DNA from: Actinomadura sp. DC4
Lineage (GTDB): Bacteria > Actinomycetota > Actinomycetes > Streptosporangiales > Streptosporangiaceae
Length of the DNA: 64,000 nucleotides
Assembly (NCBI RefSeq): GCF_030406325.1
Contig: NZ_JAUEQY010000038.1
Location: 1-64,000, forward strand
Reading direction: 5' to 3'
Shown here: one piece after another, positions 3,383 through 46,799 of the stretch
How positions within the stretch are numbered: position 1 is the first letter of the stretch
Layout of the letters: every line of letters starts with the position of its first letter
Position numbers and translations under genes: made by a program
Notes under the pieces: model-generated
Databases searched by the model: none
Seen by the model: only the letters and a program-made list of their open reading frames with translations
What the model was told of the DNA's origin: nothing

Positions 3383-3397
3383 AGTGTGGAGCCCGAT

Positions 3398-9856: not shown

Positions 9857-21396
<11,540 letters not shown>

Positions 21397-21406
21397 AAGG
21401 CGACTC

Positions 21407-24400
21407 ATGACCAACGAAGAGAAGCTGACCGACTACCTCAAGTGGGTCACCGCGGACCTGCACAAGGCGCGGCGGCGCATCGCCGAGCTGGAGTCCGGGA
21501 CGCCCGAACCGATCGCGATCGTCGGGATGGCCTGCCGCTACCCCGGCGACGTGTACGGCCCGGACGACCTGTGGCGGCTGGTGTCCTCCGAGACGGACGC
21601 GATCTCCGGCTTCCCGTCCGACCGCGGCTGGGACCTCGACGGGCTGTACGACCCGGACCCCGACCGGCTCGGCACCACGTACGCGCGCGAAGGCGGGTTC
21701 CTGCACCACGCGAACCACTTCGACGCCGGGTTCTTCGGCATGAGCCCGCGTGAGGCGCTCGCCACCGACCCCCAGCAGCGGCTGCTGCTGGAGACCGCGT
21801 GGGAGACGTTCGAGCGGGCCGGCGTCGACCCGGCCTCGCTGCGCGGCAGCCGTACCGGCGTGTTCGTCGGGATCATGTACTCCGACTACAGCGGCCGCCT
21901 GATGAACGGGGTCCCGGACGGGTTCGAGGGGCTGGTGGGGAACGGCAGCGCGGGCAGCGTCGCGTCGGGGCGGCTGGCCTACACCTTCGGGCTGGAGGGG
22001 CCCGCCGTCACCGTGGACACGGCGTGCTCCTCCTCTCTGGTCACGCTGCACCAGGCGTGCCAGGCCCTCCGCCAGGGCGAGTGCTCCCTGGCCCTCGCCG
22101 GCGGGGCGACGGTGCTGGCCACGCCCGGCATCTTCATCGAGTTCAGCCGGCAGCGCGGGCTGGCCCCGGACGGGCGCTGCAAGTCGTTCGCCTCGGCCGC
22201 CGACGGGACCGGCTGGGGCGAAGGCGTCGGCCTGCTCCTGGTCGAGCGCCTGTCCGACGCCGAGCGGAACGGGCACCCGGTTCTCGCCGTCATCCGCGGC
22301 AGCGCGGTCAACCAGGACGGCGCGAGCGCCGGCCTGACCGTGCCCAACGGCCCCTCCCAGCAGCGGGTCATCCGCCAGGCGCTCGCCGACGCCGGCCTGA
22401 CCGCGACGGACGTGGACGCCGTCGAGGCGCACGGAACCGGCACCACGCTCGGCGACCCGATCGAGGCGCAGGCCCTGATCGCCGCGTACGGGCAGGGACG
22501 GCCCGCGGACCAGCCGCTGCGGCTCGGCTCGATCAAGTCCAACATCGGGCACACCCAGGCGGCGGCCGGCGCGGCGGGCGTGATGAAGATGGTCCTGGCG
22601 ATGCGGCACGAGACGCTGCCCGCGACGCTGCACGTGGACGCGCCTTCGCCCGAGGTGGACTGGTCCGCGGGCTCGGTGGCCCTGCTGACCGAGCCGATCC
22701 CCTGGCCGCGCAACGGCCGCCCGCGCCGCGCGGGCGTCTCCTCCTTCGGCATCAGCGGCACCAACGCCCACGTCATCCTCGAAGAGCCCGGTGCGGCGGC
22801 CGGGGAACGCCCGGCGGCCACGCACACTGCGGGCCCGCTGCCGTGGGTGCTGTCGGCGCGCACGGACGGGGCGCTGCGGGCGCAGGCGAGCCGGCTCGGC
22901 GCGTTCCTCGCCGAACACCCCGGCACCGGCCCGGCCGACGTCGGCCTGTCGCTGGTCACGACCCGTACGGCGCACGACCACCGGGCCGTGCTGGTCGACG
23001 CCGGGGACGCCGCCCTGCGCGCCCTGGAGCACGGCGAACCCCACGCGAGCCTGGTCGAGGGCGTCGCGGCCCGTGACGGCCGGGTGGCCTTCCTGTTCAC
23101 CGGGCAGGGCAGCCAGCGGCCGGGCATGGGCCGCGAGCTGGCCGCCGCGTACCCGGTCTTCGCCGAGGCCCTGGACGCGGCCTGTGAGCGGTCGGGCGAG
23201 CACCTCGACGTGCCGGTCCGCGACGTGCTGTTCGCCGAGAAGGGGTCGGAGAAGGCCGCGCTGCTCGACCGGACGGCCTACACCCAGGCCGCCCTCTTCG
23301 CGCTCGAAGTGGCGCTGTACCGCCTCGTGGAGCACTGGGGCCTGCGGCCGGACGTCCTGCTCGGCCACTCGATCGGCGAGCTGACCGCCGCGCACGTCGC
23401 GGGCGTGCTGTCGCTCGCCGACGCCGCGACGCTCGTCGGGGCCCGCGGGCGCCTCATGCAGGCCCTCCCCGCCGACGGCGCCATGGTCTCGGTACGGGCG
23501 CCGCTGGAGAGCATCCTGCCGGCGCTGGAGGGCCGCGAGCACGAGGTCGCCCTCGCCGCCGTCAACGGGCCGGACTCCCTGGTGGTCTCCGGCGACCGGG
23601 ACGCCGTGCTGGAGCTGGAGACGCGCTGGAAGGGCCAGGGGCGCCGGACTCGGCGGCTGAACGTCAGCCACGCCTTCCACTCCCCGCGCATGGACGCAAT
23701 GCTGGAGGACTTCCGCACGGTCGCCGAGGGGCTGTCGTACGCGCCGCCCGCGATCCCGGTCGTCTCGAACGTGACCGGGCGCCTCGCCACGGCCGAGGAT
23801 CTCGGCTCGCCGGGCTACTGGGCCGAGCACGTGCGCCGGACCGTGCGGTTCATGGACGGCATGCGCTGCCTGGACGACCAGGGCGTCACGACCTACGTCG
23901 AACTCGGCCCGGACGGAGTCCTGTCCGCCATGGGACGCGACTGCCTGAGCGGCGCCTCCCCGGGCCGGGACCGCGTCCTGGTGCCAGTGCTCCGCGCGGA
24001 CCGGCCGGAGCCCGCCGCGATGGTCGCGGCGCTGGCCGAGGCCTACGTCCGCGGCGTTCCGGTCGACTGGCGCGCCGGTTTCGAGGGGCGCGGCGCCCGG
24101 CCGGTCCCGCTGCCCACGTACGCGTTCCAGCGGCGGCACTACTGGCTGGACGCGCCGCCGGCCCGCGACGGCGCGGACCCGGCCGACGCCCGCTTCTGGG
24201 ACGCGGTCGAACGCGAGGACCTCGCCGAGGCCGCCACGGCGCTCCGGCTGCCGGCGGACCGCCGGCGCGCCCTCGGTGACCTGCTGCCGGCGCTCTCGGG
24301 CTGGCGCAGGCAGCGCCGGTGGTGGTACCGGATCGACTGGCGCCCGGCCGCCGCCGCGCCGGCCGCGCCGCCGGGCGGCACCTGGGTCGTCGTCGCCCCG

Positions 24401-25936
24401 CAGGGGAGCCCGGGGACCGTCCTGGACAAGGCGCTGGCGGATGGCGGCGTCCGCGTCGTCCGGCTCGAGGTGCCCCCCGGCGAGCCGGACGCCGCGTCGC
24501 TCGCACGCCGGATCGGGACGGAGCTCCCGGACGGGGTGCTGTCGCTGCTGGCGTTCGACGAGACCGGCGGGGCGGCCGCGACGCCGGCCCTCTGGCAGGC
24601 CCTCGGCGACGCCGGGGTCACGGCGCCCCTGTGGCTCGCGACCCGCGGCGCGGTGGCGGCCGGCCAGGCCGATCCCGCCGCGAACCCGGACCACGCGCGG
24701 GTCTGGGGGCTCGGGCTGTGCCTCGGCCGGCGCGAACCCGGGCGGTGGGGCGGGCTGATCGACCTCCCGGACGACCTCGACGGACCCGCCGCCGTACGGC
24801 TGGCGGCCGTGCTGACCGGCGGCGAGGACCAGGTCGCGCTACGCGGGCCCGGCGTCTTCGTCCGGCGGCTGACGCACGCCGAACCGCCCGGCTGCCCGGC
24901 CGGGCAGGAGTGGGAACCGCACGGCACCGTGCTGCTCGCCGGGGACGTCGCGGCGCTCGGTGCGCCCGTCGCGCGGTGGCTGGCCGGAAACGGCGCCGGG
25001 CATCTGCTCGTGGCGGACTCGGCGGGCGGTTCCGGCCTGGACCGGGTGCGGGACGCGCTGGACGGCTCACCCGCCACGCTCGCCGCCTGTGACCCCGCGG
25101 ACCGGGACGCCCTGGCCGCCCTGCTCGACGCGATCCCGGCCGGGCGTCCGCTCACCGGCGTCGTCTTCGTGCCCGAGGGCCTGCGGGACCCGTTCGGCGC
25201 ACCGGAGGCCGACGACCCGCCGGACCGCACCGTACGAGCCGCGGTGAACCTGGACGAGCTGACCCGGGACCACGACCTGGCGGCGTTCCTGATCCTCCCC
25301 TCGATCGTCGGCCTGGTCGGCGCGCCGGACGCCGTGCGGCACGCGCCGGAGCACGCGTTCCTGGACGCGCTGGCCCGGCGGCGCCGCGAGGCCGGACGGC
25401 CCGCGACCGTCGTCGCCTGGGGCCTGCCGGCGCCCGGGGACGGCCCGTCCGCGGAGCAGGTGATCGGGGCGCTCGCGCCGGCGGCGGCGCGGAACGGGCC
25501 CACGGCCCTGGTCACGGACGTCGACTGGGCGGCCCAGGCGGGTCGCCCGCCTGCCGCCCTGCTGCGTGACCTTCCCGAGGTGCGCCGGACCGCCGAGGCG
25601 GCCTCCGCGGACACGGCCGGCCTGGCGCGCGAGGCGGAGGCGTGGCGGGCCAGGTTCGCCGCCGCGCCGGAGGCCGGGCAGGAGGCGCTCGTCCTGGACC
25701 TGGTGCGCGCGCACGCGGCGGCGGTCCTCGGCCACGACGCGCCGGACACGATCGCGCCCGACCAGCGGTTCCTCGAACTCGGCTTCTCCTCCTTCACCTC
25801 GCTGGAACTCAGCCGGCGGCTGGCGGCGGTCGTCGGCCGGGAGATCCCCGCCGCGGCGATCTTCGACACGCCGACGCCGGCCGCCCTCGTCTCATACCTG
25901 CGCGCCGAGCTGGCGCACGAAAGGAGCACCTCATGA
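21407..25936 (+). CDS. Type I PKS, terminal module: KS-AT(malonyl)-inactive KR-ACP, no thioesterase
   Basis: The protein has 1509 residues. ATG at 21407 follows AAAGG by 6 bases and begins a docking helix with [12 protein letters not shown] (about 21500-22780) has Cys, EAHGTGT and NIGHTQ. AT (about 23090-23990) has GHSIG and SHAFH, so malonyl-CoA. The next about 370 residues are a decayed KR: the NADPH motif reads [10 protein letters not shown] instead of ITGGTGxLG, and the catalytic YAAAN is replaced by HAPEH, losing Tyr and Asn. DH and ER are absent. ACP (about 25690-25900) has FSSFTS, with Ser kept but the preceding Asp changed. The protein stops after the ACP with no thioesterase. The chain should therefore leave as a beta-ketoacyl-ACP, the known substrate type for tetronate formation; the cassette genes follow immediately. 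The stop overlaps the next start (ATGA). Confidence 0.94.
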
Positions 25937-27411
25937 ACTGCACGGTCGTCATCTCCGGCGGCGGTCCCGCCGGACTCATGCTCGCGAGCGAGCTCGGCAT
26001 GGCCGGCGTGGACACGGTCGTACTCGAGAAGGAGCACGACCGGGAGACCGGCTCGAACCTGCGCTCCACCATGCTGCACGCGCGGGCGGTCGACCTGCTG
26101 GAGCGGCGCGGGCTGATGGAGCGCATCGGCAGGGACGCGTTCGTCAAGTGGCCGCTCATCCACTTCGCCAACTTCTGGCTCGACCTGCAGCCGCTGCTCG
26201 AACACGAGTACTCCCTCATCGTCCCGCAGACGCACACGGTCTCGGTGCTGGAGGAACGCGCGCGCGAGGTCGGCGCCGACATCCGCCGCGGGCACGAGCT
26301 GACCGGCGTGACGCAGGACGAGGACGGCGTCACCGTCCACGTACGGTCCGGCGGCGAGGAGTACCGGATCGACGCGCGCTACCTCGTCGGCTGCGACGGC
26401 GAGGACAGCGCCGTCCGGCGTCTCGCCGGGTTCGAGGCGCCGCAGAGCGGCATCACCTGGTACGGCGTCCTCGCCGACTACGAGAACGCCTCGGCCGAGC
26501 CCGCCTCTCCCACCTACCCGGGCGGCCTGTTCGCCAGGACGCCCCACCCGTACAAGCAGGGCTGGGTGCGCACGATGACGATGGAGCTGGGCGTCGACGC
26601 GCCGGGCCCGGAGGTGCCGGTCACGGTCGAGGAGCTGCGCACGGCCGCGGAGCGGATCACCGGCGAGAAGCAGGAGCTCGGCCCGCCCACCTGGGCGTAC
26701 CGATACACGAACCGCACCCGGCTCGCCGCGCGCTACCGGGACGGCCGGGTGTTCCTGGCCGGCGACGCCGCGCACGTCCACTACTTCGCCGCCGGCCACG
26801 GCGTCAGCACCGGCCTGCACGACGCCGTGAACCTCGGCTGGAAGCTGGCGGCCGAGGTACGCGGGCAGGCCCCGGCCGGTCTGCTGGACACCTACCAGAC
26901 CGAACGCCACGCGGTCGGCCGCCGCGCGTGCGTGAGCGCGGAGGCGCAGCTCGCGCTGCTGCACCCGCCGGAGCGGGTCGCTCCCCTGCGGGAGCTGTTC
27001 GAGGAGCTGGTCCGGTTCCCGGACGTGAACCGGCACCTCGTCGGCGTCATCACCGACGTCCGCTACCCGTTCGAGCACACCGGGGCGACGGCGCATCCGC
27101 TGCTCGGAGCCCCGGTGCCCGACGCGCCGCTGAAGACCGCGGACGGTGAGACGACCCTCGCGGCCACGCTCCGTAACGGGCGCGGCGTCGTGCTCGACCT
27201 CCGCGACGGCTCCGGGGGGATCTCCAGGTGGGAGGACCGGGTCGACCTCGTCGCGGCCACGCCGGTCGCCGGCCTCGACGCAGCGCGCCTGCTCGTCCGC
27301 CCCGACGGGCACGTCGCCTGGGTGGACGCGGACGGTACCGACGACGAGGGCCTGCGTACCGCGCTGACCACCTGGTTCGGGGCGCCCGCCGACGAGCAAG
27401 AGGCGCTTTAG
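25933..27411 (+). CDS. FAD-dependent class A monooxygenase family protein
   Basis: The protein has 492 residues. ATG at 25933 overlaps the PKS stop and follows AAGGAG by 6 bases. It has the FAD-binding Rossmann motif GGGPAG (residues 9-14), a DG motif ([12 protein letters not shown]) and the second FAD motif [10 protein letters not shown]. The C-terminal about 110 residues have the thioredoxin-like look of aromatic-polyketide hydroxylases (RdmE/PgaE type). The family usually adds a hydroxyl using NADPH, FAD and oxygen. The location, coupled between a PKS and a tetronate cassette, suggests another role: flavoproteins of this fold (PyrE3 and relatives) catalyse decalin-forming [4+2] cyclisation in spirotetronate and spirotetramate pathways. 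The sequence by eye cannot choose between oxygenase and cyclase. It is cytoplasmic, with no signal peptide. Confidence 0.85.
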
Positions 27412-27456
27412 CCATGCCACCGACGATGAAGAGCACGTACGGAAGGACCTGGAGCG

Positions 27457-28485
27457 ATGCCTGACACGTACATCCGTTCGGTCGGGACCGCCCTGCCAGG
27501 CCCGCCGATCGACAACGCCGCGCTCGCCCGGCGCTTCAACCAGGGCGCCGTCTGGCAGCAGTGGGTCGAGTCCTTCGTCGGCACCCGCGTCCGCCACCTC
27601 GCGCTGGACCTGGAGACCGGCGAGCAGCGCAGCTCTCTCGCCGATCTGGGCGAGGCCGCGGCACGGCGCGCGCTGTCCGGCGCGGGCGTCGACGCCGCGT
27701 CGGTCGACCTCGTCGTCATGGGCACCGCCACCCCGGACGCGCTCATGCCCGCGACCGTCAACCTGATCGCCGACCGGCTCGGCATCAACGAGGTGCCCGC
27801 GTACCAGCTGCAGTCGGGATGCACGGGCGCGGTCCAGGCGCTCGACGTGGCGCGGCAGATGCTGCTGACCGGACGGCACCGGACCGCGCTGGTCCTCGGC
27901 GGCGACGTCTGCGCCAAGCACTTCGACGTGAACCTCGACCTCGCCGGGCGGCCGCCGGCCGAACAGGTCAACGGCGTGCTGTTCGGCGACGGCGCGGGCG
28001 CGGCCGTGATGAGCGTCGATCCCGGCGCCGGGCTCCCGCTCCGTATCGAACACGTGCTACTGCGGCTCACCGGCATGAACCGGCCGCCCGGGCAGGTCGT
28101 CGACTGGTTCGGGATGGCCGACCGCGGCGACGAGCGGCCCGGCGTCCTCGAGGACTACAAGGCCATCGAGGAGTCGGTGCCGGACATGGCGGTGGAGATC
28201 CTGGAGGAGATGCTCGCCGACCTGGACTGGAAGCGGAGCGAGCTGGCGTACCTGCTGCCGCCGCAGCTCTCCGGGCGGATGACGCAGCGGATCAGCGAGC
28301 GGATGGCCGTGCCGGACGCGCGGGAGGTGAGCTGCGTCGCCGACACCGGGAACAACGGCAACGCGCTGCCCTTCCTCCAGCTCGAACAGGCCCTGCCCCT
28401 CATGTCGCCCGGCGACCGGTCCGTCCTGGTCGCCGTGGAGTCGAGCAAGTGGATCAAGGCCGGTCTGGCGTTCGAGGCCGGGTGA
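27457..28485 (+). CDS. FabH-like KAS III, tetronate C-C/C-O bond-forming enzyme
   Basis: The protein has 342 residues, the normal KAS III length. It has the thiolase-fold pattern with nucleophile Cys122 in LQSGCTGA and the glycine-rich FGDGAGA. In known tetronate pathways (RK-682, agglomerin, tetronomycin types) this enzyme joins glyceryl-ACP to the beta-ketoacyl chain and closes the ring, which also releases the chain. The canonical PHQAN segment reads PPQLS here, so the catalytic His is Pro269; the Asn region (TGNNGN, about 299) is kept. Loss of the decarboxylase His fits an enzyme that does no ordinary Claisen decarboxylation, but I cannot say whether all tetronate homologues share it. Ribosome sites GGAAGG and GGAG lie just upstream. 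FkbH, ACP, acyltransferase and alpha/beta-fold genes follow. Confidence 0.87.
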   Translation: MPDTYIRSVGTALPGPPIDNAALARRFNQGAVWQQWVESFVGTRVRHLALDLETGEQRSSLADLGEAAARRALSGAGVDAASVDLVVMGTATPDALMPATVNLIADRLGINEVPAYQLQSGCTGAVQALDVARQMLLTGRHRTALVLGGDVCAKHFDVNLDLAGRPPAEQVNGVLFGDGAGAAVMSVDPGAGLPLRIEHVLLRLTGMNRPPGQVVDWFGMADRGDERPGVLEDYKAIEESVPDMAVEILEEMLADLDWKRSELAYLLPPQLSGRMTQRISERMAVPDAREVSCVADTGNNGNALPFLQLEQALPLMSPGDRSVLVAVESSKWIKAGLAFEAG

Positions 28486-28487
28486 CC

Positions 28488-30356
28488 ATGAGCGCGGGCC
28501 GACTTGGCGAGCTGCACCGGGCCGGGCGCCTCGCCGCTGAGTATCCGCAGGTCTCCGGGGTGCTGGCGGACCTGTCCGGGCCCGACCTCCTGCGCGCGGG
28601 CCACCTGCTCGCGCGACTCGACCCGGACGAGGTACTCCGTGAGCATCCCGGCGTGCCGGTCGTCACCGTCGCGATCACCGGCCACGGGACGCTGGCGCCG
28701 CTGGTTCCCGCCCTGACCGCCGAGCTGGCCCGGCACGGCGTCGTCCTGCGGTCCTGCGTCTCCGGCTTCGACGGCTACGTCTTCGACCTGTCGGACCCGG
28801 GCAGCGACCTGTACGCGGCGGGAGCCGACCTGACGCTCTGCGTCCTCGACCCGGCGGTCGTGTTCGACGAGGTGCCGGTGCCGTGGCGGCCCGCCGACGT
28901 CGAACGGGTGGCCGCGGAGAAGCTCGGCCTGCTCACCCGGCTGGCCGGGCGCTTCGCCGAGGCCGGGCGCGGCACCCTCGTGCTCAACACCCTGCCGCTC
29001 CCCCGCCACCTGGCCGCCCAGCTCACCGACCACCGTTCCCGCGCCCTCCTCGGCGCCGTGTGGCGGGAGGCCAACGCGCGCCTGCTCCGCCTCGCCGAGA
29101 CCCGTACGGAACTGGTCGTGCTGGACCTGGACCCGCTGCTGGCCGAGGGCGTCGCGGCGCACGACCCGCGGCTGGACGCCTACGCCAAGGCGCACCTGTC
29201 CCCGGACCTGCTCGCCCGGTACGCCCGCGAGGTAGGCCACCTCGCCCGTGAGGTCGCGGGCCGGACCAAGAAGTGCCTGGTGCTGGACCTGGACGAAACG
29301 GTGTGGGGCGGGGTGCTCGGCGAGGACGGCGCCGACGGCATCGAGGTCGCCGACGGGCACCGCGGCGAGGCGTTCCGGTCCTTCCAGCGGGTGGCCAAGC
29401 AGATCGCGTCGCAGGGCGTGCTGCTCGCCGCGGTCAGCAAGAACGACCCCGAGCCGGTACGCGCGGTGCTCCGCGACCATCCCGGGATGACGCTGCGCGA
29501 GGAGGACTTCGTCCGGGTCGTCGCGAACTGGCGGCCCAAGCACGAGAACCTCCGCGAGCTGGCCGAGGCGCTCAACCTGGGCGTGGACGCCTTCGTGTTC
29601 GTCGACGACAGCGCGTACGAGTGCGGGCTGGTGCGGCGTGAGCTGCCCGGCGTCGCGGTGGTGCGGGTGGACGACGAGCCCGCCCGGCACGTCGAGCGGC
29701 TCCTCGCCGACGGCTGGTTCGACGTCCGTACGGTGACCGCGGACGACCGCGCGCGCGTGGCGCGGTACCGCGACGAGCTGACCCGCAAGGACTTCCTCGA
29801 CGGCTTCGACTCGATCGAGGACTACCTTCGCGAGCTGCGGATCACGGTACGCGTCTCGGCGGCGGAGGAGCCCGACGTGCCGCGCGTCTCACAGCTCACC
29901 CTCCGTACGAACCAGTTCAACCTGACCACCCGGCGGCTTCAGCCGGCCGAGGTCCGGGCGCTGGTCGAGGACCCGTCGGCGTACGCGATCGCCATCCGCG
30001 CCGCCGACCGGTTCGGGGACAGCGGGCTGGTCGGGGCGGTCTTCGCCTCGCGGGACGGCGACGCCGTGACGATCGACAACTTCCTGCTGAGCTGCCGGGT
30101 GTTCTCGCGCGGCATCGAGCAGGCGGGCCTGTCCGCAGTGCTGCGCACCGCCCGCGAATCGGGGGCCACCGCCGTGTACGGCGTCTACCGGCCGACCGCC
30201 AGGAACGGCGTGGTCCGCGACTTCTATCCGCGCTACGGCTTCCGGCCGGTCGCGGAAGACGGCACGGCGGTGACGTACCGGCACGACCTGGCCGACATCG
30301 TGCCCGCCCCCGGGCACATCGACCTGACCGAGAACCTGAACGGGAGGACCCCATGA
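28488..30356 (+). CDS. FkbH-like protein: glyceryl-ACP synthesis from 1,3-bisphosphoglycerate
   Basis: The protein has 622 residues. ATG at 28488 lies 2 bases after the previous stop. The N-terminal part resembles the extension of stand-alone FkbH proteins. The HAD phosphatase core starts near residue 263 with LVLDLDETVWGG, in which D267 and D269 are the expected nucleophile and acid/base. A GNAT-like C-terminal region ends the protein. The family takes D-1,3-bisphosphoglycerate, removes phosphate and loads glycerate onto an ACP. The next gene is that ACP, overlapping by ATGA, so the partner is clear. Glyceryl-ACP also feeds methoxymalonyl-ACP synthesis in other clusters, but the O-methyltransferase and two dehydrogenases needed for that are absent here, while all tetronate partners are present. 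Confidence 0.93.
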   Translation: MSAGRLGELHRAGRLAAEYPQVSGVLADLSGPDLLRAGHLLARLDPDEVLREHPGVPVVTVAITGHGTLAPLVPALTAELARHGVVLRSCVSGFDGYVFDLSDPGSDLYAAGADLTLCVLDPAVVFDEVPVPWRPADVERVAAEKLGLLTRLAGRFAEAGRGTLVLNTLPLPRHLAAQLTDHRSRALLGAVWREANARLLRLAETRTELVVLDLDPLLAEGVAAHDPRLDAYAKAHLSPDLLARYAREVGHLAREVAGRTKKCLVLDLDETVWGGVLGEDGADGIEVADGHRGEAFRSFQRVAKQIASQGVLLAAVSKNDPEPVRAVLRDHPGMTLREEDFVRVVANWRPKHENLRELAEALNLGVDAFVFVDDSAYECGLVRRELPGVAVVRVDDEPARHVERLLADGWFDVRTVTADDRARVARYRDELTRKDFLDGFDSIEDYLRELRITVRVSAAEEPDVPRVSQLTLRTNQFNLTTRRLQPAEVRALVEDPSAYAIAIRAADRFGDSGLVGAVFASRDGDAVTIDNFLLSCRVFSRGIEQAGLSAVLRTARESGATAVYGVYRPTARNGVVRDFYPRYGFRPVAEDGTAVTYRHDLADIVPAPGHIDLTENLNGRTP

Positions 30357-30574
30357 CCATCGACGACTTCGCCGTGTTCGTACGCGACGAGATCGGCCTG
30401 GACGTGACACCCGCGGACGTCGGCAAGAGCTTCGACGAGCTGCCCGGATGGGACTCGGTGCACCTGCTGAGCCTGCTGACCGCGCTGGAGCGCAGCACCG
30501 GCCGTCCGCTGTCGCTTCCGGACCTGCTGGACGCCGCGAGCCTCGAACAGATCTACGCGAAGGCGGTCTCATGA
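30353..30574 (+). CDS. Discrete acyl carrier protein for the glyceryl unit
   Basis: This 73-residue protein has the ACP signature GWDSVHLL, with Ser35 as the phosphopantetheine site. Its start overlaps the FkbH stop (ATGA) and its stop overlaps the next start (ATGA), so all three are translationally coupled. By family knowledge it carries the glyceryl group made by the FkbH-like protein and presents it to the KAS III-like enzyme. Confidence 0.93.
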   Translation: MTIDDFAVFVRDEIGLDVTPADVGKSFDELPGWDSVHLLSLLTALERSTGRPLSLPDLLDAASLEQIYAKAVS

Positions 30575-31317
30575 GACGCGAACCGGTCGCGCGCGAGCGG
30601 CGGCACACCCTCCACTTCCTGGAGGAGGTCCGCTCTTTCGCGCCGGTGTTCCTGGACACCGAGATCGACATGACCGCGGTGACCGGGCACCGGGCCGCGG
30701 CCGGCCGGAAGTACTCGGTCGTCACGTACGTGCTGCTCGCGGCGGCGCGCGCTCTCAGCAAGCATCCGGAGGCGAACGCGGCCATCCGCGGGCGGCGCCG
30801 GCCGAAGATCGCACGGTTCGACACGGTCTCCGGGAAGCTCACCCTGGACCGGACGCTCAACGGCCACCGGATCGTGCTGTCGGCGGTACTCCCCGACCTG
30901 GACCGGGCAGGTCTGGACGAGGTGCAGGCCGAGGTGGACCGCTACCGCGACGGCGACCCGGCCACGATGCCGGACTTCGCCGGGGTCCGCGCCCTGCACC
31001 GGATGCCCTGGCCGTTCGGGTCCACGGTGTTCCGGCTCGCCGCCCGCCCGCTCGCGCGGCGGCCGGAGATGCTGGGGACCTTCGCGGTCACCTCCCTCGG
31101 GCACCGCCCGGTCGACGGCTTCCACTCGGTGGGCGGGACCACGATCACGCTCGGGGTCGGGCGGATCGCCGACCGGCCCGTCGCGCGGGACGGCGAGGTG
31201 GTGATCGTCCCGGCGATGCGGCTCAGCCTGGCGTTCGACCACCGGGTGATCGACGGCGCGGAGGCCGCCGACCTGCTCGCGGACATCAAGGACGGCCTGG
31301 AGGCTTTCAATGAATGA
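30571..31317 (+). CDS. Stand-alone 2-oxoacid dehydrogenase E2-type acyltransferase
   Basis: The protein has 248 residues and corresponds only to the catalytic domain of E2 acyltransferases; there is no lipoyl or E1/E3-binding domain. The active-site signature HxxxDG is present as DHRVIDG (H224, D228). In agglomerin and RK-682 type pathways the homologous enzyme (Agg4 family) acetylates the primary hydroxyl of the tetronate ring so that acetate can be eliminated to give an exocyclic methylene. The gene overlaps its upstream neighbour by 4 bases and its downstream neighbour by 8, so it belongs to the same operon. E1 and E3 genes are absent from the window, which argues against a central-metabolism role. 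Confidence 0.88.
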   Translation: MRREPVARERRHTLHFLEEVRSFAPVFLDTEIDMTAVTGHRAAAGRKYSVVTYVLLAAARALSKHPEANAAIRGRRRPKIARFDTVSGKLTLDRTLNGHRIVLSAVLPDLDRAGLDEVQAEVDRYRDGDPATMPDFAGVRALHRMPWPFGSTVFRLAARPLARRPEMLGTFAVTSLGHRPVDGFHSVGGTTITLGVGRIADRPVARDGEVVIVPAMRLSLAFDHRVIDGAEAADLLADIKDGLEAFNE

Positions 31318-32371
31318 CGTCGGTGAGCTGAAGGAGTTCGCGACCGTGCACGCGCGGGCGCAGAACATCCGCCGCTACCGGGACGTTCTCGACCGCATCG
31401 ACAGCGACGAGGACGGCGGTCCGGGCTCGTGGGCCGGTGAGTGGAGCCGGGCGGCGGAGGAGTTCGCGGCACGCCCCCTGGAGGCGTGCCGGCGCTACAA
31501 CATGGCCCGGTTCCCGTACGTGGACGGCCCCGCGCGGCTCCAGGCGCTGCGGCGGTGCGTGGAGTCCTTCGACGAGTGGCGGCAGGGCCAGAAGGACGTT
31601 ACGCGACTCGATCTGGACCTGGAGGGGGGACGGGTCGGCGCCTGGGCCACCGGCCTGTCGTCGCCCGAACCCCGGCCCCTCGTCCTCATCATGGGCGGAA
31701 TCGTCAGCGTCAAGGAGCAGTGGGCGCCGGTGCTCGACGCCATCCGGGGCCTGGGCATGGCCGCGGTCGTCACCGAGATGCCCGGCGTCGGGGAGAACAC
31801 CCTCCGCTACACGCCCGAGAGCCGGCGGATGCTGTCCGGTCTCCTGGACGCCCTCGAGGGGCGGGCGGACGTCTCCCGTACGTACGCGATGGCGCTGAGC
31901 TTCGGCGGGCACATGGCGATGCGCTGCGCCGTGGAGGACCGGCGGATCCGCGGGATCGTGACGACCGGCGCGCCGGTTCGCGCGTTCTTCACCGACGCCG
32001 CGTGGCAGCGGCAGGTGCCGGACGTCACGATGGACACCCTCGCCCACCTGACCGGCACGAAACGCGCCGACCTGCCCGACCGCCTCGCCGCGTGGGCCCT
32101 GACCGACGACCAGCTGGCCGCGCTGGACATCCCGGTGCACTACGCGGCGAGCCGCCGAGACGAGATCATCCCCGCCGAGGACGTAGACCTGCTGCGGCGG
32201 AAGGTGCCCGGACTGTCCGTGCTGGAACACGACGACGTGCACGGCTCGCCGCACCACGTGACCGAGACCCGCCTGTGGTCCGCCTGGTCGGTGCTGCGGA
32301 TGGCCGACACGATGCCCGTACAGCGAGCCCTGGCCGGCGGGCTCCTCCGCCTGTTCCGGATGTTCCGTTAG
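31310..32371 (+). CDS. Alpha/beta-hydrolase-fold protein, predicted acetate-eliminating enzyme of tetronate tailoring
   Basis: The protein has 353 residues. ATG at 31310 is set by CTGGAGG 7 bases upstream and overlaps the previous gene by 8 bases. It resembles FrsA-like hydrolases: about 100 helical N-terminal residues, then the core with LIMGGIVSVKEQW, a nucleophile elbow ALSFGG (Ser near 196) and a late His (VHGSPHH). In the agglomerin pathway the corresponding protein (Agg5 family) removes acetate from the acetylated tetronate to give the exocyclic double bond. Neighbour order, E2-type acyltransferase then this gene, matches that two-step route. It is last in the plus-strand operon; a converging gene begins 3 bases later, leaving no room for a separate terminator. 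Ordinary esterase activity is the alternative. Confidence 0.85.
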   Translation: MNDVGELKEFATVHARAQNIRRYRDVLDRIDSDEDGGPGSWAGEWSRAAEEFAARPLEACRRYNMARFPYVDGPARLQALRRCVESFDEWRQGQKDVTRLDLDLEGGRVGAWATGLSSPEPRPLVLIMGGIVSVKEQWAPVLDAIRGLGMAAVVTEMPGVGENTLRYTPESRRMLSGLLDALEGRADVSRTYAMALSFGGHMAMRCAVEDRRIRGIVTTGAPVRAFFTDAAWQRQVPDVTMDTLAHLTGTKRADLPDRLAAWALTDDQLAALDIPVHYAASRRDEIIPAEDVDLLRRKVPGLSVLEHDDVHGSPHHVTETRLWSAWSVLRMADTMPVQRALAGGLLRLFRMFR

Positions 32372-32374
32372 CCG

Positions 32375-33637
32375 CTACGCGCCGACCGGGGGCGCCGGCC
32401 GTGAGTAGTAGACCTTGACGCTTCCGCAGCCTCTGGCCAGGCTCCGTACGGGCCCGGTCACCGGCACCCGGATCTCGTCGAAGGCGGCGATCGAGACCAG
32501 CCCGCCGATGGGCAGGCTGCGCAGCATCTGCTGGGCGGCCCCGGGAGGCGGGTCCTCCCAGAGGATGCACACCATCCGCACCGTGACCGCGACGCCATTG
32601 GTGTTGTGCAGGAGCAGGGTGTCGAAGTCCTGGGGTGCCTCGGTGAACCGGGTGCCCAGCAACCGGCGCGCGTGCAGCTCCTCGGCGGCGCTCGCCGGCC
32701 GCCTCAACCGGTCCCTGTGTCGTACGGTCACCCTGACGTCGGCGACGTCGCGGAAGCCGGGCCCGTCGAAGGCGAGCACGTCGATCCCCGGCGAGCGGGG
32801 CGGCAGGACCACCAGCCCGCGGTCGCTCCCGTACGCGGTCCGTACCGTGACGCCCGGGAGCACGTGCCCGGCGCGGTCGAGCGGGACGAACCCCAGGGTC
32901 GGCGCCGTGGCGGTGAGCCCGTAGTTGGTCATGTGGAGGACCTGGTCGATGTAGCCCGGGCCGGTGGTCCGCTTGAAGACGAAGGCGATCTCCGGGTCCG
33001 GGCTCGACGGCACGATGTTGACGATGACGGCGCCGAACAGCACCACCCCGAGGCCGAGGCTCGCCAGCGTGATCCACAGGCGCGCGGACCGCCGGGCCCG
33101 CTCCTGCTCCGGTGGGGTGTCACGGATGAGGAACCCCTTGAGCCCCGAGGACGGCTCGTACGCCTCCCGCAGCCGGCCGGCGATCTCGACGACCTCCGCC
33201 GCCGGGCGCGCGAGGCGTCCGGCGCGCACGGCGATCGGGGCGCCGAACCGCCGCAGGTTCGCGTGGACCTCCGGGCGGGCGGGGAGCGCCACGTCCTCCA
33301 GCGCCTGGCCGGGTTCGCCGACGCGTACGACCAGCCGGCGACCGCGCTGCTCGACCGCCGTCACGTTGGACCACGAGAGGCGCATCTCGTACTTGTGCCA
33401 GGTGATCTCGTCCGCGGCGAGGGTCAGGCCACGCCTGGCGCGCAGGGCGGTCAGGATCGCGTTCGTCTCCAGGAGCGCGATGCCGGGGATCCACAGGACC
33501 ATCGGCCCTCCGGCGTCCCAGCCGAGAAACCACCTGAGCGCGATGGCGACCGGCCAGAACACCGGCCAGAACCACACGGCGTGGCTTCGGTACGCGATCC
33601 GCTCATCCTGCGATGCCATCGTTGAAATCCCCGTCAT
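32375..33637 (-). CDS. Membrane protein with PH-like segment, function unknown
   Basis: The protein has 420 residues. ATG at 33637 is preferred over an in-frame ATG 18 bases later because GGAG lies 8 bases upstream. Near the N-terminus are one or two hydrophobic stretches (about residues 21-60). They are followed by a segment like bacterial PH domains (RGLTLAADEITW...VTAVEQRGRRLVVRV), a second hydrophobic helix near 186-208, and a probably extracellular C-terminal half of about 200 residues without recognisable catalytic motifs. I do not recognise a named family. The gene runs against the tetronate operon and shows no biosynthetic feature, so it may mark the edge of the first cluster. Confidence 0.75.
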   Translation of the reverse strand: MTGISTMASQDERIAYRSHAVWFWPVFWPVAIALRWFLGWDAGGPMVLWIPGIALLETNAILTALRARRGLTLAADEITWHKYEMRLSWSNVTAVEQRGRRLVVRVGEPGQALEDVALPARPEVHANLRRFGAPIAVRAGRLARPAAEVVEIAGRLREAYEPSSGLKGFLIRDTPPEQERARRSARLWITLASLGLGVVLFGAVIVNIVPSSPDPEIAFVFKRTTGPGYIDQVLHMTNYGLTATAPTLGFVPLDRAGHVLPGVTVRTAYGSDRGLVVLPPRSPGIDVLAFDGPGFRDVADVRVTVRHRDRLRRPASAAEELHARRLLGTRFTEAPQDFDTLLLHNTNGVAVTVRMVCILWEDPPPGAAQQMLRSLPIGGLVSIAAFDEIRVPVTGPVRSLARGCGSVKVYYSRPAPPVGA

Positions 33638-34556: not shown

Positions 34557-37478
34557 GTGGGCACTGCCCCGGGCATCGAGCCGCCGGAAGGGTACGTGCT
34601 GAACACCGAGGAGGGCCGCCAGCTCCTCGCCCTTTTCGGCTCACTGATGGCGGTCAGGTCCTGGCGGCTGAGCGGCCAGCCGTTCCCCGTGATCGTTCTC
34701 GATGCCACCGAGCCTCAGGCGAATGTCGGCGCGTACGTCGACGCGCTCGAACAGGCCGCCGTCGAGGCCCGCATCCCGCACACGAGCCCCATTCTCGACA
34801 CGGACGCGGAAGACGCGGAACTCACCCTGCTCGACACGATGTCCGAGTCCAGCGCCTGGCGGTCGGCCCGGCCCGAGATCGGACCGCTGCGGTTTCCCCG
34901 TTCCAACCTGGTCAAGTCCCTGGAGCGGGCCATCGAACGCGCCCGCGAGAACAACACGAGCCCCGCCGACGAGTGGAGCGCCGCGGACGCGCTGTCCTCC
35001 TCGTCCCGGCGTCCGAACAAGGCGCCGGTCTGGTGGTCCACGATCGGCGTGGTCGCCGCCGCCCTGCTGGGCGGCTTCGCGCAGGGCCTGGCCGACAAGG
35101 TGACGATGGCCGTCCTGCTCGTCGGCGCCGGAGTGCTGGTGGCCCTGCTGTTGCTGGCCGCCGGGCTGCTGACGCGCCGGCTGTGGCTGCCCGTCCTGAC
35201 GCGGCTGGGGTTCGGCACGCGCTATCGCTGGTTCGCCACCTCCTCGTTCTTCTCCGTGCTCGGCGGCACCGGGTTCGAGGACAGGCTCAAACGGGTGCTC
35301 GGCCGGATGACCGCCAAGCGTGGCGCGGACCAGTTCCGGCTGCAGCTGAAGTCCTTCGCCTTCCTGGAGGACCTCCGCGCGGCGCACCGCAGGCTGTCGC
35401 CGAACCTTCGCGGGTTCAAGCGGCCGGTGCCGCCGGTGGTGTTCCTGGCCGGCATCACGAAGGAGAACGGCGGCATCGAGCTGCTGTCGGCGATGAGCGA
35501 CATCCGCAGCCGGCGGAGTGAGCTTCATCCGCTGCTGGTGATCGCCTCCGTCGACCACGCAAACCGTCACGAGCTCGACGAACTCGCGGCGCCCCAGCAC
35601 GAGACCGACGTCTCCATCGAGGACCGCTACCGCGACTGGGAGGCGTCCCTCGGCATCGCACAGGCGCCCAGCCAGCAGGTGCCGCTGCCCTGGGTGCTGC
35701 GGCTGCCCATACCGCCCCGGCGGCCGGGCCGCAACCCGGCCAACCCGCTGCCGGTACGACGGCGCCCGCGCTGGACCTGGCTCTGGTCGCGCCGGTCTCT
35801 CGTGGCCGCGCTGCTCGTGACGGCCGTGGGGATGTCCTACCTCCACATGCGCCTGACGTCGGAGTACTGCCACGTCGGCTTCCCGTTCTCCCCCAACACC
35901 GACTCCCGGCTGCGTACCGACGCCGACGGCAGCCGTGAGTGCGTCGGCGTCGCGACCGACGGCGTCCGCTTCGACCGCGGAACCGGCAGCATCGGCATCG
36001 ACGGCAACCGCGCGCGGCCGCACGAGACCGCGGATCTCGCTCTCTCCCACGGCGACTTCACCCTCGCCGACCTGCAGAGCCGCATCGAGCGCGAGAACAA
36101 GGCCATCGCGGGCCTGCGCCAGCCGTACGTGACCGTGCTCTACGCGGGCATCCTGAGTGCCGCCGAGGGTCACGACGGAAGCGTGGTGAGCGGTATCCGA
36201 TCGCTCGCCGGTGCCTACCTGGCCCAGCTCGGCAACAACCACACCGGCGGGCCGGGCTCGGCCGGGAACCCGCCGAAGATCCGCCTGCTGCCGGTCAACG
36301 TCGGCGAGAACATGTACTTCTCGCGAGAGGTCGCCGACCAGATCCTCGCCCTCGCACGACGGGACCCGACGATCGTCGGCGTCGTCGGCATGGAGCGCAA
36401 CACCGACGCCTCCCAGGACGCGATCACCCGGCTGAACCACGCCGGGCTGGCGGTCGTGGACACCGTCAACTCCTCCGACCAGTTGCCGATGCTGTCGCAC
36501 TACTACGGGCTCGCGGCCACCGACCACGACGAGGCGGTGCTCGCGGCGTACGCGGCGCGTGAGGCGCTCGGGCGCCGCGCCGCCCACACGATGATCGTCT
36601 CGCACGCGCCCGCTCCGTTGAAGGACGACCGGAGCACTCCCGCGAAGGACAACTACAGCGCCGAGCTGGCCGCCGACGCCCAGCAGCAGCTCGGGTCCGA
36701 CGAGACGACGGCCGTCCGCTACAACAGCGCGGGCGACATCGGCGGGCGTGTCAGGACGGCGTGCACCGCGGCGGCCGACGACCCGTACGACCTGATCTAC
36801 TTCGCCGGCCGCGCCGAGGACCTCTACAACGTGATCAACAATCTGGGCGGCGGCGGGTGCGCGAAACGGCCGCTGACCCTGCTGGGCGGCGACGAGATCG
36901 CGCGGGCGCACTTCGGCAGCGGCCGCCAGGACGTCGCGCTACCGCCGGGGATCAACGTCTACTTCACCAGCGCCACCTATCCGAAGAACCTCACCGCCCA
37001 CGGCCGGGACCGCAGCAACCCCTTCTTCACGCTCGCCCGGAACGACCTCGGCATCGCCTCGACGGACCAGACGCTGCTGGCGGACGGTCAGATGGCGCTG
37101 ACCTATGACGCGACGTCGGTGCTCGCCCTGGCGGCGCAGAAGGCGTTCACCACCCTCGACCTCACCTCACCCGACGACTCGGTGAGCCCCGGCAGCCGGG
37201 CGGTCACCTCGGGCGGTGTCCTGCTGGAGCTGCCGTCCCTCGTGTGGACCGGCGCCGCGACCGGCACCGTCGACTTCACCAAGGACGCCCACGACTCGTA
37301 CGGGCCGGGCAACCGGGGGCTCACCCTCGTCCGCGTCACCGTCGACGGTCACGGCGCCGCGACGTACCGGCCGATCTGCGGGCAGATGAACGGCGGCGGC
37401 AAGGTCGCGGACCTGCCGCTCCTGCACCTGCCCAAGAACGCCTCCGACCGGCGCGAGCGGCCCGTCTGCACCGGTTGA
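34557..37478 (+). CDS. Multi-pass membrane protein with extracellular type I periplasmic-binding-like receptor domain
   Basis: The protein has 973 residues; GTG start with GGAGG 9 bases upstream. By eye: a cytoplasmic N-terminal region (1-155), two adjacent hydrophobic helices (about 158-178 and 182-206), a second probably cytoplasmic region (about 210-410), a third helix (about 415-434), then about 540 extracellular residues. The last part reads like a branched-chain amino-acid receptor or substrate-binding fold (VTVLYAGILSAAEG, IVGVVGMERNTDASQDAI, DLIYFAGRAEDLYNVI). It has no lipobox, and no ABC permease or ATPase gene is nearby, so it is not an ordinary uptake receptor. A sensor coupling an extracellular ligand to a cytoplasmic effector is conceivable but unproven. 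It converges on the fused aminotransferase gene with a 4-base gap. Function unknown. Confidence 0.8.
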   Translation: MGTAPGIEPPEGYVLNTEEGRQLLALFGSLMAVRSWRLSGQPFPVIVLDATEPQANVGAYVDALEQAAVEARIPHTSPILDTDAEDAELTLLDTMSESSAWRSARPEIGPLRFPRSNLVKSLERAIERARENNTSPADEWSAADALSSSSRRPNKAPVWWSTIGVVAAALLGGFAQGLADKVTMAVLLVGAGVLVALLLLAAGLLTRRLWLPVLTRLGFGTRYRWFATSSFFSVLGGTGFEDRLKRVLGRMTAKRGADQFRLQLKSFAFLEDLRAAHRRLSPNLRGFKRPVPPVVFLAGITKENGGIELLSAMSDIRSRRSELHPLLVIASVDHANRHELDELAAPQHETDVSIEDRYRDWEASLGIAQAPSQQVPLPWVLRLPIPPRRPGRNPANPLPVRRRPRWTWLWSRRSLVAALLVTAVGMSYLHMRLTSEYCHVGFPFSPNTDSRLRTDADGSRECVGVATDGVRFDRGTGSIGIDGNRARPHETADLALSHGDFTLADLQSRIERENKAIAGLRQPYVTVLYAGILSAAEGHDGSVVSGIRSLAGAYLAQLGNNHTGGPGSAGNPPKIRLLPVNVGENMYFSREVADQILALARRDPTIVGVVGMERNTDASQDAITRLNHAGLAVVDTVNSSDQLPMLSHYYGLAATDHDEAVLAAYAAREALGRRAAHTMIVSHAPAPLKDDRSTPAKDNYSAELAADAQQQLGSDETTAVRYNSAGDIGGRVRTACTAAADDPYDLIYFAGRAEDLYNVINNLGGGGCAKRPLTLLGGDEIARAHFGSGRQDVALPPGINVYFTSATYPKNLTAHGRDRSNPFFTLARNDLGIASTDQTLLADGQMALTYDATSVLALAAQKAFTTLDLTSPDDSVSPGSRAVTSGGVLLELPSLVWTGAATGTVDFTKDAHDSYGPGNRGLTLVRVTVDGHGAATYRPICGQMNGGGKVADLPLLHLPKNASDRRERPVCTG

Positions 37479-37482
37479 GGAC

Positions 37483-39810
37483 TCATCGGCGCGTCGCGGC
37501 CTCGGACTCGATGAAGGCGGACAGCCGGGAGACGCCCTCCTCCGCGTCGGCGTGCGTCAGGTAGCTCGTGGACAGCCTGATCATGTGATCGCCGCCGCCG
37601 TGGGGGTGGAAGTACGACATCGGGGTCCAGATGACGCCGAAGTCCTGCGCGGACCTGGCGAGGGCGGCGTTGTCGGCGCGGAACGGCACCTTCATGGCCA
37701 GGAAGAAGCCGCCGGCCGGGGCGTTCCAGCTCACGCCCAGCCGCGCCCGGCGTTCGGGCGCGAACACCCGCTCCAGCGTCTGGAGGGTGAAGCGCATGGT
37801 GTCGCCGTAGTACGCGGCCGTGTCCGCGTTCAGGTCCCCCACCCGGCCCCCTGACTGCAGAAGCGCGCCCGCCACCGCGGCCTGGCTCAGCGCCGAGGTG
37901 TTCACCGTGACCATGCTCTTGATCTTGGCGAGCTCGGCCGCCAGCAGTCCCGTGGTGCCGTCGGGCCGCTGGACCGGCTGGTCGGCGACCACGTATCCGA
38001 CGCGCGCGCCCGGGAAGACGGTCTTCGCGTACGAGCCCAGGTGGATCACCCGGCGGTTCCGGTCGAGGGACTTCAGCGTCGGGACCTGGGCACCGGGACT
38101 GACCAGCCGGTACGGGCTGTCCTCCAGGATGAGCACGTCCTGCCGTTCGGCCAGGTCGAGCAGCGCGTATCTCGTCTCCAGCGGCGTGGTCAGGCCGGAC
38201 GGGTTGGAGTGGTCGGGGATCACGTACACCGCGCGGGGCCGGCGTCCACGGGCGCGTTCGGCGAGGATCGCGGCCTCGACGTCCGCGCATGACAGGCCGT
38301 CCTCGCGCTCCTCGACCGCGACGACGTCGGCGTCCAGCAGCCGGGCCGCGCCGGTGATGCCCATGAAGGACGGGCTGGAGACCAGCACCACGTCGTCGGG
38401 GCCGGCCAGGAGCGCGCGCAGCGTCAGGAACATCGCCTCCTGGCAGCCCACGGTGACCACGATCGACTCCGGCGGGACGTCGATGCCCTCCTCGGTACGG
38501 AGCGAATCGGCGACGAGTCCCCGGATCAGGCCGGCGGACGGCCCGTACTGGAACACCGTGTCGCGCACCTGGGCCGGCGTGCGACCGGTGGCGGCGAGGT
38601 GGTCGAGGTAGCGGCGGATGTAGGTGAAGATCTGCTCGGTGTCGAAGAACCCGTCGTACGGCCGGCCGGGCGCGAACGAGACGGCCTCGGGGTAGCGCAG
38701 CGTCACCTCGTTCAGGAAGTTCAGCGTGTCCATGACCGGGTCGGCGACGCTCGCGTGCAGGTCCGCCAGGCGCAGCGCGGGCCCGCGTTCCCGGGCCGGC
38801 GGCGGCGCGGCGACGTCGGCGACCGCGCCGTGGCCGGCGTAGGCCATGGCGGTCCGGAGCTCGTCCAGCAGGATGGTGAGGACGCGTGCCACGCCCTCGG
38901 CCGCGCCGACCGACAGGCCGTGCAGCACCGGACGGCCGAGCAGGACCGCGTCGGCACCGAGCGCGAGGGCCGCGAGCACGTCCTGGCCGCGGCGTACGCC
39001 GCCGTCGAGCAGGACCGGCAGGCGTCCGGCCACCGCCGAGGCGACCTCGGGCAGGGCGTCGAGCGTGGCCGGGACGCCGTCGCGCCCGCCGTGGTTGGAG
39101 ACCACGACACCGTCCGCGCCCGCGTCGGCGGCGTGGCGCGCGCCGGCGCCGGTCAGCACGCCCTTCACCACGACGGGCAGCGACGTGACCGAGCGCAGCC
39201 ACTCCACGACCGGCCAGTCGGGGCCGGGGTCGAACGTGATCCGGGCGGGCCCGGCGCAGCCCTTCGCGCCGAGGTTGGTCGGGGTCAGGCCGGATGGCAG
39301 GCGCAGGTCGCCGGCCGCGTCGCCGCCGGCGTGCGGGGTGCCGAAGGTGAGGACGAGCGCCTCGAAGCCCGCGTTCTCCGCGCGTTCGACGAGCCGGCGC
39401 AGGAGCGGCCGGTCGTGCAGAGAGTAGACCTGGAGCCAGAGCGGCACGCCGCCCTCGGCCGCGAGTTCCTCCAGGGTCCGGCCCGCGAAGGTGCTGACCA
39501 CGACCGGGACCCCGCCCGCGGCGGCCGCTCCCCGTACGGTGGCGAGCTCTCCCAGCGGATGCGCCAGGGCCTGGTAGGCCAGCGGCGCCACCGCCACCGG
39601 CGCCGCCCATGAACGGCCGAGGATCTCGGTGGCGGTGTCCGGCCGGAGCGCGGTGCGCGTGGGCGCGGACTCCGCCCGCACCTGTTCGAAGGCCTTGAGG
39701 TTGGCGGCGAGCGCGCGTTCCTCGGCGGCGCCGCCCTCCATGAGCTCCCAGGTCGCGGAGCTCATCTGGGCGTGCGCGAGCCGGGCGAAGTCGCTGAGTG
39801 TCCATTCCAT
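37483..39810 (-). CDS. hmo-hpgT: Fused FMN hydroxymandelate oxidase and PLP aminotransferase (Hmo-HpgT)
   Basis: The protein has 775 residues. Residues about 1-350 are an FMN-dependent alpha-hydroxy-acid oxidase with active-site SNHGGR (His near 241) and a glycine-rich LLDGGVRRGQD. Residues about 365-775 are a fold-type I aminotransferase with PDHSNPSG and the PLP lysine in SYAKTVFPGAR (near 595). The oxidase half would turn 4-hydroxymandelate into 4-hydroxyphenylglyoxylate. The aminotransferase half would turn that, or 3,5-dihydroxyphenylglyoxylate from DpgC, into the phenylglycine amino acid. It ends the Dpg operon, 15 bases after dpgD. No 4-hydroxymandelate synthase (HmaS) is in the window, so the oxidase half has no visible supply here; HmaS may lie outside. 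Separate hmo and hpgT genes are the commoner arrangement in glycopeptide clusters. Confidence 0.92.
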   Translation of the reverse strand: MEWTLSDFARLAHAQMSSATWELMEGGAAEERALAANLKAFEQVRAESAPTRTALRPDTATEILGRSWAAPVAVAPLAYQALAHPLGELATVRGAAAAGGVPVVVSTFAGRTLEELAAEGGVPLWLQVYSLHDRPLLRRLVERAENAGFEALVLTFGTPHAGGDAAGDLRLPSGLTPTNLGAKGCAGPARITFDPGPDWPVVEWLRSVTSLPVVVKGVLTGAGARHAADAGADGVVVSNHGGRDGVPATLDALPEVASAVAGRLPVLLDGGVRRGQDVLAALALGADAVLLGRPVLHGLSVGAAEGVARVLTILLDELRTAMAYAGHGAVADVAAPPPARERGPALRLADLHASVADPVMDTLNFLNEVTLRYPEAVSFAPGRPYDGFFDTEQIFTYIRRYLDHLAATGRTPAQVRDTVFQYGPSAGLIRGLVADSLRTEEGIDVPPESIVVTVGCQEAMFLTLRALLAGPDDVVLVSSPSFMGITGAARLLDADVVAVEEREDGLSCADVEAAILAERARGRRPRAVYVIPDHSNPSGLTTPLETRYALLDLAERQDVLILEDSPYRLVSPGAQVPTLKSLDRNRRVIHLGSYAKTVFPGARVGYVVADQPVQRPDGTTGLLAAELAKIKSMVTVNTSALSQAAVAGALLQSGGRVGDLNADTAAYYGDTMRFTLQTLERVFAPERRARLGVSWNAPAGGFFLAMKVPFRADNAALARSAQDFGVIWTPMSYFHPHGGGDHMIRLSTSYLTHADAEEGVSRLSAFIESEAATRR

Positions 39811-39825
39811 TGAGAAACCCCGTCG

Positions 39826-43737
<3,912 letters not shown>

Positions 43738-46732: not shown

Positions 46733-46799
46733 GCGAGGGGCGGATGAGCGTCCCGGTCACCGTACGGCGCGAAGAATCCAGAGAGAGCGAGGCGGTTTC

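Follow-up and report, generated by a model that had tools for sequence, protein, structure and literature searches.

A tetronate release cassette behind a degenerate terminal ketoreductase in Actinomadura sp. DC4, and a probable class II spirotetronate pathway

Tetronate synthesis needs a beta-keto thioester, and the route by which such chains are released has been reviewed (PMC4979870). In tetronate polyketide synthases (PKSs) a dead or absent terminal ketoreductase (KR) has already been published and is not unusual. The terminal module 14 of tetromadurin is described with a KR that lacks the catalytic Tyr, in a PKS for which the account in PMC7489565 gives no module with a thioesterase domain, and the terminal module of abyssomicin, AbyB3, is given as ketosynthase, acyltransferase and acyl carrier protein (KS-AT-ACP), KR being absent from the architecture in PMC3625739 (KS-AT-ACP also in PMC5819245). 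In chlorothricin, ChlE3 forms the decalin (PMC13273814). Here we describe a related locus in Actinomadura sp. DC4, found in a window of 64,000 nucleotides (contig NZ_JAUEQY010000038.1, hereafter C43, positions 1 to 64,000). Its PKS ends in a module with a degenerate KR, followed by genes of the tetronate type. The release arrangement itself is already known; the cluster as a whole is probably a new class II spirotetronate pathway and thus a candidate source of an uncharacterised spirotetronate.

The release end of this PKS consists of the features below. The list of open reading frames (ORFs) confirms 21407-25936 for the terminal PKS ORF and 32371 for the end of the alpha/beta-fold protein, the limits used in an earlier note on this stretch.

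21407-25936, plus strand: terminal PKS module, docking-KS-AT(HAFH)-pseudoKR-ACP, without thioesterase (Pfam; locus census)
24923-25426, plus strand: degenerate KR domain; glycine loop, Lys, Tyr and Asn lost (Pfam KR, 77 bits; alignment; predicted fold)
25337-25354, plus strand: RHAPEH replacing NYAAAN, with His for the catalytic Tyr and Asn (alignment)
25700-25900, plus strand: terminal ACP, LGFSSF (GFSSF at 25781-25795) instead of LGFDSL (Pfam PP-binding; motif census)
25933-27411, plus strand: FAD protein of 492 amino acids, PgaE/PyrE3 superfamily, probable decalin [4+2] cyclase (Pfam; PDB sequence search; tree)
27457-28485, plus strand: KASIII-like tetronate synthase; Cys122 and Asn299 kept, Pro at the position of the FabH active-site His (Pfam; PDB sequence search; alignment)
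28482-30356, plus strand: FkbH-like protein, putative glyceryl-ACP supply (TIGR01686, 292 bits against a cut-off of 147)
30353-30574, plus strand: stand-alone ACP, putatively for the glyceryl unit, motif GWDSV (PF00550; translation)
30571-31317, plus strand: E2-type acyltransferase, AbyA4/Agg4-like by position and family, HRVIDG near the C terminus (PF00198)
31310-32371, plus strand: alpha/beta-fold protein, AbyA5-like, putative acetate elimination (PDB 4ywf, AbyA5, 369 bits; PF06500)

Alignment of the terminal KR with the window's four intact KRs showed AGDVAALG in place of the glycine loop TGGTGxLG, no residue in the Lys column, and His for both Tyr and Asn; the Ser column is retained. The earlier note had claimed the loss of the NADPH motif and of the catalytic Tyr/Asn, and the realignment bears this out, no functional KR emerging from it. 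Having neither NADPH motif nor catalytic Tyr, the domain agrees with C-type (inactive) KRs and, judging from its residues, is dead. An epimerising, C2-type role was considered and rejected, because the malonyl unit chosen by the HAFH-type AT offers no alpha-methyl to epimerise. Pfam recognises docking, KS, AT, dimerisation-element, KR and PP-binding domains in the terminal PKS, and no thioesterase there or in the six genes downstream, in agreement with the claim that no release domain follows. Nor does a candidate for a trans-acting thioesterase lie beside the module; the one noted in the genome, on contig C37, belongs to a locus that looks by eye like one for a nonribosomal peptide synthetase (NRPS).

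The same note had placed KAS III, FkbH, ACP, E2 and alpha/beta genes next to the PKS. All five are present, but the KASIII gene is not the next one: the FAD gene, which had been missed, sits between it and the terminal PKS. The best PDB relative of the KASIII protein is 5by7 (411 bits), named in the search table just as a 3-oxoacyl-ACP synthase III and which we take to be AbyA1. At the PHQAN of FabH it reads PPQLS, invariant in all 15 aligned KASIII sequences. With FkbH, a stand-alone ACP and a FabH-like KASIII together, the locus has the 3-acyl tetronate cassette of the AbyA1-A5 or Agg type, and the PF00198 acyltransferase with the AbyA5-like protein makes up the pair expected for an exocyclic methylene. 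The same arrangement recurs at loci of several actinomycete genera and is thus more than chance.

These genes suggest the following route. The terminal module would add the last malonyl unit and, because its KR is dead, leave a beta-ketoacyl-ACP, as had been proposed; its malonyl-type AT counts in favour of a tetronate, since C3 of the ring requires such a unit. By analogy with characterised homologues, FkbH and the small ACP would supply glyceryl-ACP, and the KASIII-like enzyme would couple its glyceryl unit to the chain on the terminal ACP, setting free a 3-acyl-5-hydroxymethyl tetronate. Acetylation of this product by the E2-type enzyme and elimination of acetate by the AbyA5-like enzyme would then give the exocyclic methylene. 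Release, ring closure and methylene formation by the cassette, as first suggested, are thus supported by the matches to 5by7 and AbyA5 and by the reviewed pathway (PMC4979870).

A second FkbH gene, 67% identical, is present in the genome at C37:62145-63965 (loci L002/L003); its neighbours are a thioesterase gene (L003:13140-14033) and genes that look by eye NRPS-like. The KASIII protein has a single match in the genome at E 1e-70; around the C37 FkbH gene no other search for cassette genes was made.

The earlier note stopped at a 3-acyl-5-methylidene tetronate. The cassette does predict this compound, but it is more likely an intermediate than the end product, because the operon holds a ChlE3-like FAD gene and the genome an AbyU-family gene by a PKS start. 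The PDB matches of the FAD protein are ChlE3 (357.5 bits), PgaE (325.5), 4k2x (321.9; OxyS according to PMC7489565) and PyrE3 (300.1). Upstream of the terminal module the PKS is organised as follows.

2-3382, plus strand: PKS module truncated by the contig start, AT end (GAFH)-dehydratase (DH)-KR-ACP, KR intact (ORF, domain scan)
3386-9856, plus strand: PKS module KS-AT(YASH, methylmalonyl type)-DH-enoylreductase (ER)-KR-ACP, KR intact (domain scan)
9856-21396, plus strand: two-module PKS, KS-AT(YASH)-DH-ER-KR-ACP and KS-AT(GAFH, malonyl type)-DH-KR-ACP, both KRs intact (domain scan)

The order of modules near the end is therefore DH-KR, DH-ER-KR, DH-ER-KR, DH-KR and a module with an inactive KR (KR0). 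From it we predict a chain with a keto group at C3. The penultimate, malonyl-type DH-KR module would introduce C4=C5, the two methylmalonyl-type DH-ER-KR modules methyls at C6 and C8 with C7 and C9 reduced, and the DH-KR module that opens the contig C10=C11. A decalin is expected from such a chain, because the enone dienophile and the diene would lie four atoms apart. The FAD protein most likely closes this trans-decalin by an intramolecular [4+2] reaction between the C4=C5 enone and a C10-C13 diene over the four-carbon tether, and the AbyU-family enzyme most likely closes the spiro ring. With these two genes added to the list, a general tetronate prediction becomes a testable pentacyclic one.

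The AbyU family (PF18678) has a single match in the genome, the gene C38:4600-5127, whose product matches 9qp8 (99.5 bits), 8of7 (97 bits) and AbyU itself (5dyv, 53.7 bits) in the PDB. On one flank it has a TetR gene and a gene that looks by eye like an MFS transporter; the opposite flank holds a PKS that starts KS-AT-ACP-KS. The first KS of this PKS lacks DTACSSS, and we read the start as a loading module. The window opens with C43 itself: its first base falls within an AT, and over 484 bases this AT is 95% identical to a second AT in the PKS, a repeat at which the assembly probably broke. Contigs C38, C73, C80 and C83 likewise end or begin within KS or AT domains and give, with C43, four broken ends and four broken starts. 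This is consistent with ten extension modules, in an order that we infer, other PKS contigs also existing in the genome. Actinomadura sp. OS1-43 has together on one contig an AbyU-like gene, a loading module, twelve extension modules, a terminal module with pseudo-KR, and FAD, KASIII, ACP, E2 and alpha/beta genes. PF18678 was found in the genomes of six of eight related loci, with no match in those of L065 and L027.

Taken together, the data make it likely that the locus is the tetronate release end of a modular PKS whose product, after decalin closure by the FAD protein and spiro closure by the AbyU-family enzyme, would be a class II spirotetronate. Several points weigh against this assignment. 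The AbyU-like gene and the PKS start are on C38 and not on C43, and their linkage, drawn from matching broken PKS ends and from the OS1-43 cluster, is the main reservation on the probable class II assignment. Of the modules needed, those for dienophile and tether are present, but the one that would set C12=C13 lies beyond the contig; the DH active-site motifs deviate in the modules at 2-3382 and 3386-9856, which leaves the diene and the saturation states uncertain. No FkbH match was found in OS1-43 within the 93 kb read. Finally, the FAD protein shares 44% identity with ChlE3 and 41-43% with PgaE and OxyS, and the tree puts it in a clade of eight rows (98/98) apart from the rows of ChlE3, PgaE and OxyS.

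These last figures bear on the rival that fares best, which keeps the tetronate release but makes the FAD protein an oxygenase or a hetero-cyclase of the Tsn11 kind, and the product a simple 5-methylidene, tetrodecamycin-like or polyether-like tetronate without a spiro ring. The protein also matches the oxygenases PgaE and OxyS, the tree does not nest the protein with ChlE3, and Tsn11, Tmn9 and Mad10 are described as PyrE3 relatives in polyether tetronate pathways (PMC7489565). From the tree as computed, the choice between cyclase and oxygenase is not settled. At all 19 columns where PgaE and OxyS share an Arg, whether or not these correspond to the NADPH residues of MtmOIV, the residue is missing in four for the window protein and in four for ChlE3, two being common to both. 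Against the rival stands the AbyU-family gene adjoining the PKS start, yet VstJ-type relatives are reported from polyether tetronate clusters as well (PMC7489565). The OS1-43 contig also argues against it, since it unites the two cyclase-type genes with a terminal module of this kind. We regard a non-spiro product as rather unlikely and retain the class II spirotetronate.

A feature of the terminal module more unusual than its dead KR is the ACP motif. The survey took in the window and 80 named loci with KASIII relatives, the best among 227; at E 1e-70, 14 of the 150 family genomes have such a relative, that of DC4 being one of them. As a proxy for a terminal ACP we took fewer than 60 amino acids after the domain, which gave 30 rows, or 29 without OS1-43 (a duplicate of L023). 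In 19 of these 29 short-tail ACPs, GxDSL is replaced by G-x-[S/T]-S-[F/L], with Ser or Thr before the active Ser, compared with none of the 82 other ACPs of the same loci and of this genome's PKS contigs (one of them unreadable, and some OS1-43 rows duplicating L023). The Fisher test gives p of about 2e-14 for motif versus short tail, shared ancestry being ignored. The ten short-tail ACPs that retain Asp read LGFDSV (three), YG[LF]DSV (six) and LGMDSL (one, L051), and the first nine belong to tetronate loci of another, smaller KS-AT type. A search of 17 genomes that supplied other loci among the 80, which gave best hits only and is no census, found four further altered-motif modules (L151, L158, L160 and L173), all reading G-x-[S/T]-S-F and with no KR Tyr motif seen by eye.

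Seven loci were set apart from the count. In L039, L042, L047, L049, L051 and L060 a module with an intact KR stands immediately before KASIII, with C-terminal tails of 85-106 amino acids in five and 46 in L051, and in L096 one with an 88-amino-acid tail precedes the FAD gene. By our judgement these are mid-line modules; if any of them were truly terminal, the pattern would have exceptions. L039 and L060 are KASIII loci with a KS-DH-KR-ACP module, its AT undetected at the threshold used, and are perhaps trans-AT-like PKSs by a tetronate cassette.

The motif is not exclusive to terminal ACPs. A non-terminal ACP of L176 reads LGFTSL, and GFSSF occurs in mid-line PKS ACPs of two same-family genomes (L180, L181), both without a KASIII match at E 1e-70. 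A strict DNA pattern of the motif matched three of the 150 family genomes, namely that of DC4 and two others, in which the hit is a mid-line PKS ACP lying in no recognised tetronate locus; recovering only one of the 14 KASIII-positive genomes, it was rejected as an association test for being too strict. A phosphopantetheinyl transferase linked to the cluster and paired with the odd motif was also considered and found no support, the three matches in the genome being on C18, C21 and C26 and not on C38 or C43; in OS1-43 one match lies about 5 kb past the AbyU-like gene. We found no open-licence paper discussing a GxDSL or DSL motif jointly with tetronate, subscription journals lying outside the scope of the search, and the altered motif is possibly new. 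Whether G-x-[S/T]-S-[F/L] is a dedicated signature, marking the terminal ACP for hand-over to the KASIII-like synthase rather than to another KS or a thioesterase, we propose tentatively and with the balance of our opinion somewhat against it. The signature persists where the KR is a relic or deleted, so the ACP and not the KR would mark the off-loading module. If functional, it would offer a short genome-mining mark for that module and a single-residue handle on how KASIII-type synthases recognise their PKS partner.

The KRs of the 19 altered-motif terminal modules are found at several stages of decay, from full-length but dead to deleted. Eleven are dead but detectable by hidden Markov model (HMM), with Tyr and Asn absent in all 11; five are degenerate relics (L027, L033, L044, L054 and L076; 446-602 amino acids from AT to ACP, alignable to the pseudo-KRs); and three are deleted (L046, L048 and L093; an AT-to-ACP span of just 84-156 amino acids). 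A recognisable intact KR was seen in none of the 19. The AT code in these modules is HAFH in 15 and RAFH in two with a cut AT, the AT being unread in the remaining two. That the KR might in effect not be dead, its keto group being reduced by a neighbouring-module or trans KR or the chain released as an acid by a trans thioesterase, is highly improbable: cross-module KR action is proposed for tetromadurin module 12 (PMC7489565) and C37 does hold a thioesterase gene, but tetronate synthesis needs the beta-keto thioester (PMC4979870), comparable terminal modules are uniformly without an intact KR and an intact tetronate cassette lies directly downstream.

It had also been suggested that the dead KR is kept as a structural element, and here the evidence is mixed. 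An AlphaFold2 prediction from an 18-row alignment gave a full KR didomain (pLDDT 87, pTM 0.87), which matches Lsd14, EryKR1 and A-type and C2-type KR structures in Foldseek. In seven overlapping pairs, the ratio of nonsynonymous to synonymous change (dN/dS), obtained by simple counts on diverged, GC-rich DNA, was 0.49-0.90 in the terminal pseudo-KR; the penultimate KR of these pairs gave 0.32-0.44. For the pseudo-KR, the bootstrap interval had its upper bound below 1 in five of the seven pairs and above it in window-L023 (only 81 codons) and window-L065. Over the whole AT-ACP interval the ratio was 0.47-0.87 (eight pairs), against 0.22-0.32 for the KS (seven of those pairs). Constraint on the pseudo-KR thus appears relaxed but probably not gone. 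A structural role is possible; it is weakened by the loss of the domain in three of the 19 comparable modules, from which deletion appears to be tolerated in some lineages.

Beyond the release genes, the window appears to hold an NRPS cluster of the hydroxyphenylglycine type next to the tetronate genes, on the minus strand at 37483-64000 and beyond (C43, L005), with enoyl-CoA hydratase-family genes within it and the members listed below. Two large predicted genes between the clusters, 34557-37478 and 32375-33637, matched nothing in Pfam or NCBIfam at E 0.001; at E 0.1 they gave only weak Pfam matches below threshold.

37483-39810, minus strand: fused FMN hydroxy-acid dehydrogenase/aminotransferase, second cluster
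42592-43737, minus strand: chalcone-synthase-family protein, DpgA-like as read, second cluster
43905-45545, minus strand: CmlA-type diiron hydroxylase, second cluster
46380-48755, plus strand: ABC transporter gene, near the second cluster
49031 onward, minus strand: giant NRPS-like ORF (by eye)

Compared with known systems, the locus shares the AbyA1-A5 cassette with abyssomicin, and AbyA5 is the closest solved relative of its alpha/beta protein, but the terminal AbyB3 is described as KS-AT-ACP with no KR (PMC3625739). Tetromadurin (mad) is similar in its thioesterase-free modules and in the Tyr-less KR of its terminal module 14, and differs in being a polyether tetronate with Mad10 and Mad31 as cyclases (PMC7489565). 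The predicted two-cyclase logic is that of chlorothricin with ChlE3 and ChlL (PMC13273814); ChlE3 is the best solved relative of the window FAD protein, although at 44% identity and in another clade. In Streptomyces lucensis (L059), the FAD protein is sister to ChlE3 and the terminal module has a dead KR and LGLSSF, as in the window. Actinomadura kijaniata NBRC 14229 (L054), presumably the kijanimicin cluster, has the same order of terminal PKS module, FAD, KASIII, FkbH, ACP, E2 and alpha/beta genes, with a KR relic and the ACP motif LGLSSF; its relic falls under the HMM threshold, and the FAD proteins are 47% and the terminal KSs 77% identical. The closest relative found is the OS1-43 cluster (L023, L144-L148), with a FAD protein 67% and a terminal KS 81% identical. 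It differs in its twelve extension modules, in another near-end reduction pattern and in having a further FAD gene next to the AbyU-like one, and resembles our locus in the pseudo-KR, in LGLSSF and in the AbyU-like gene at the opposite end of the PKS.

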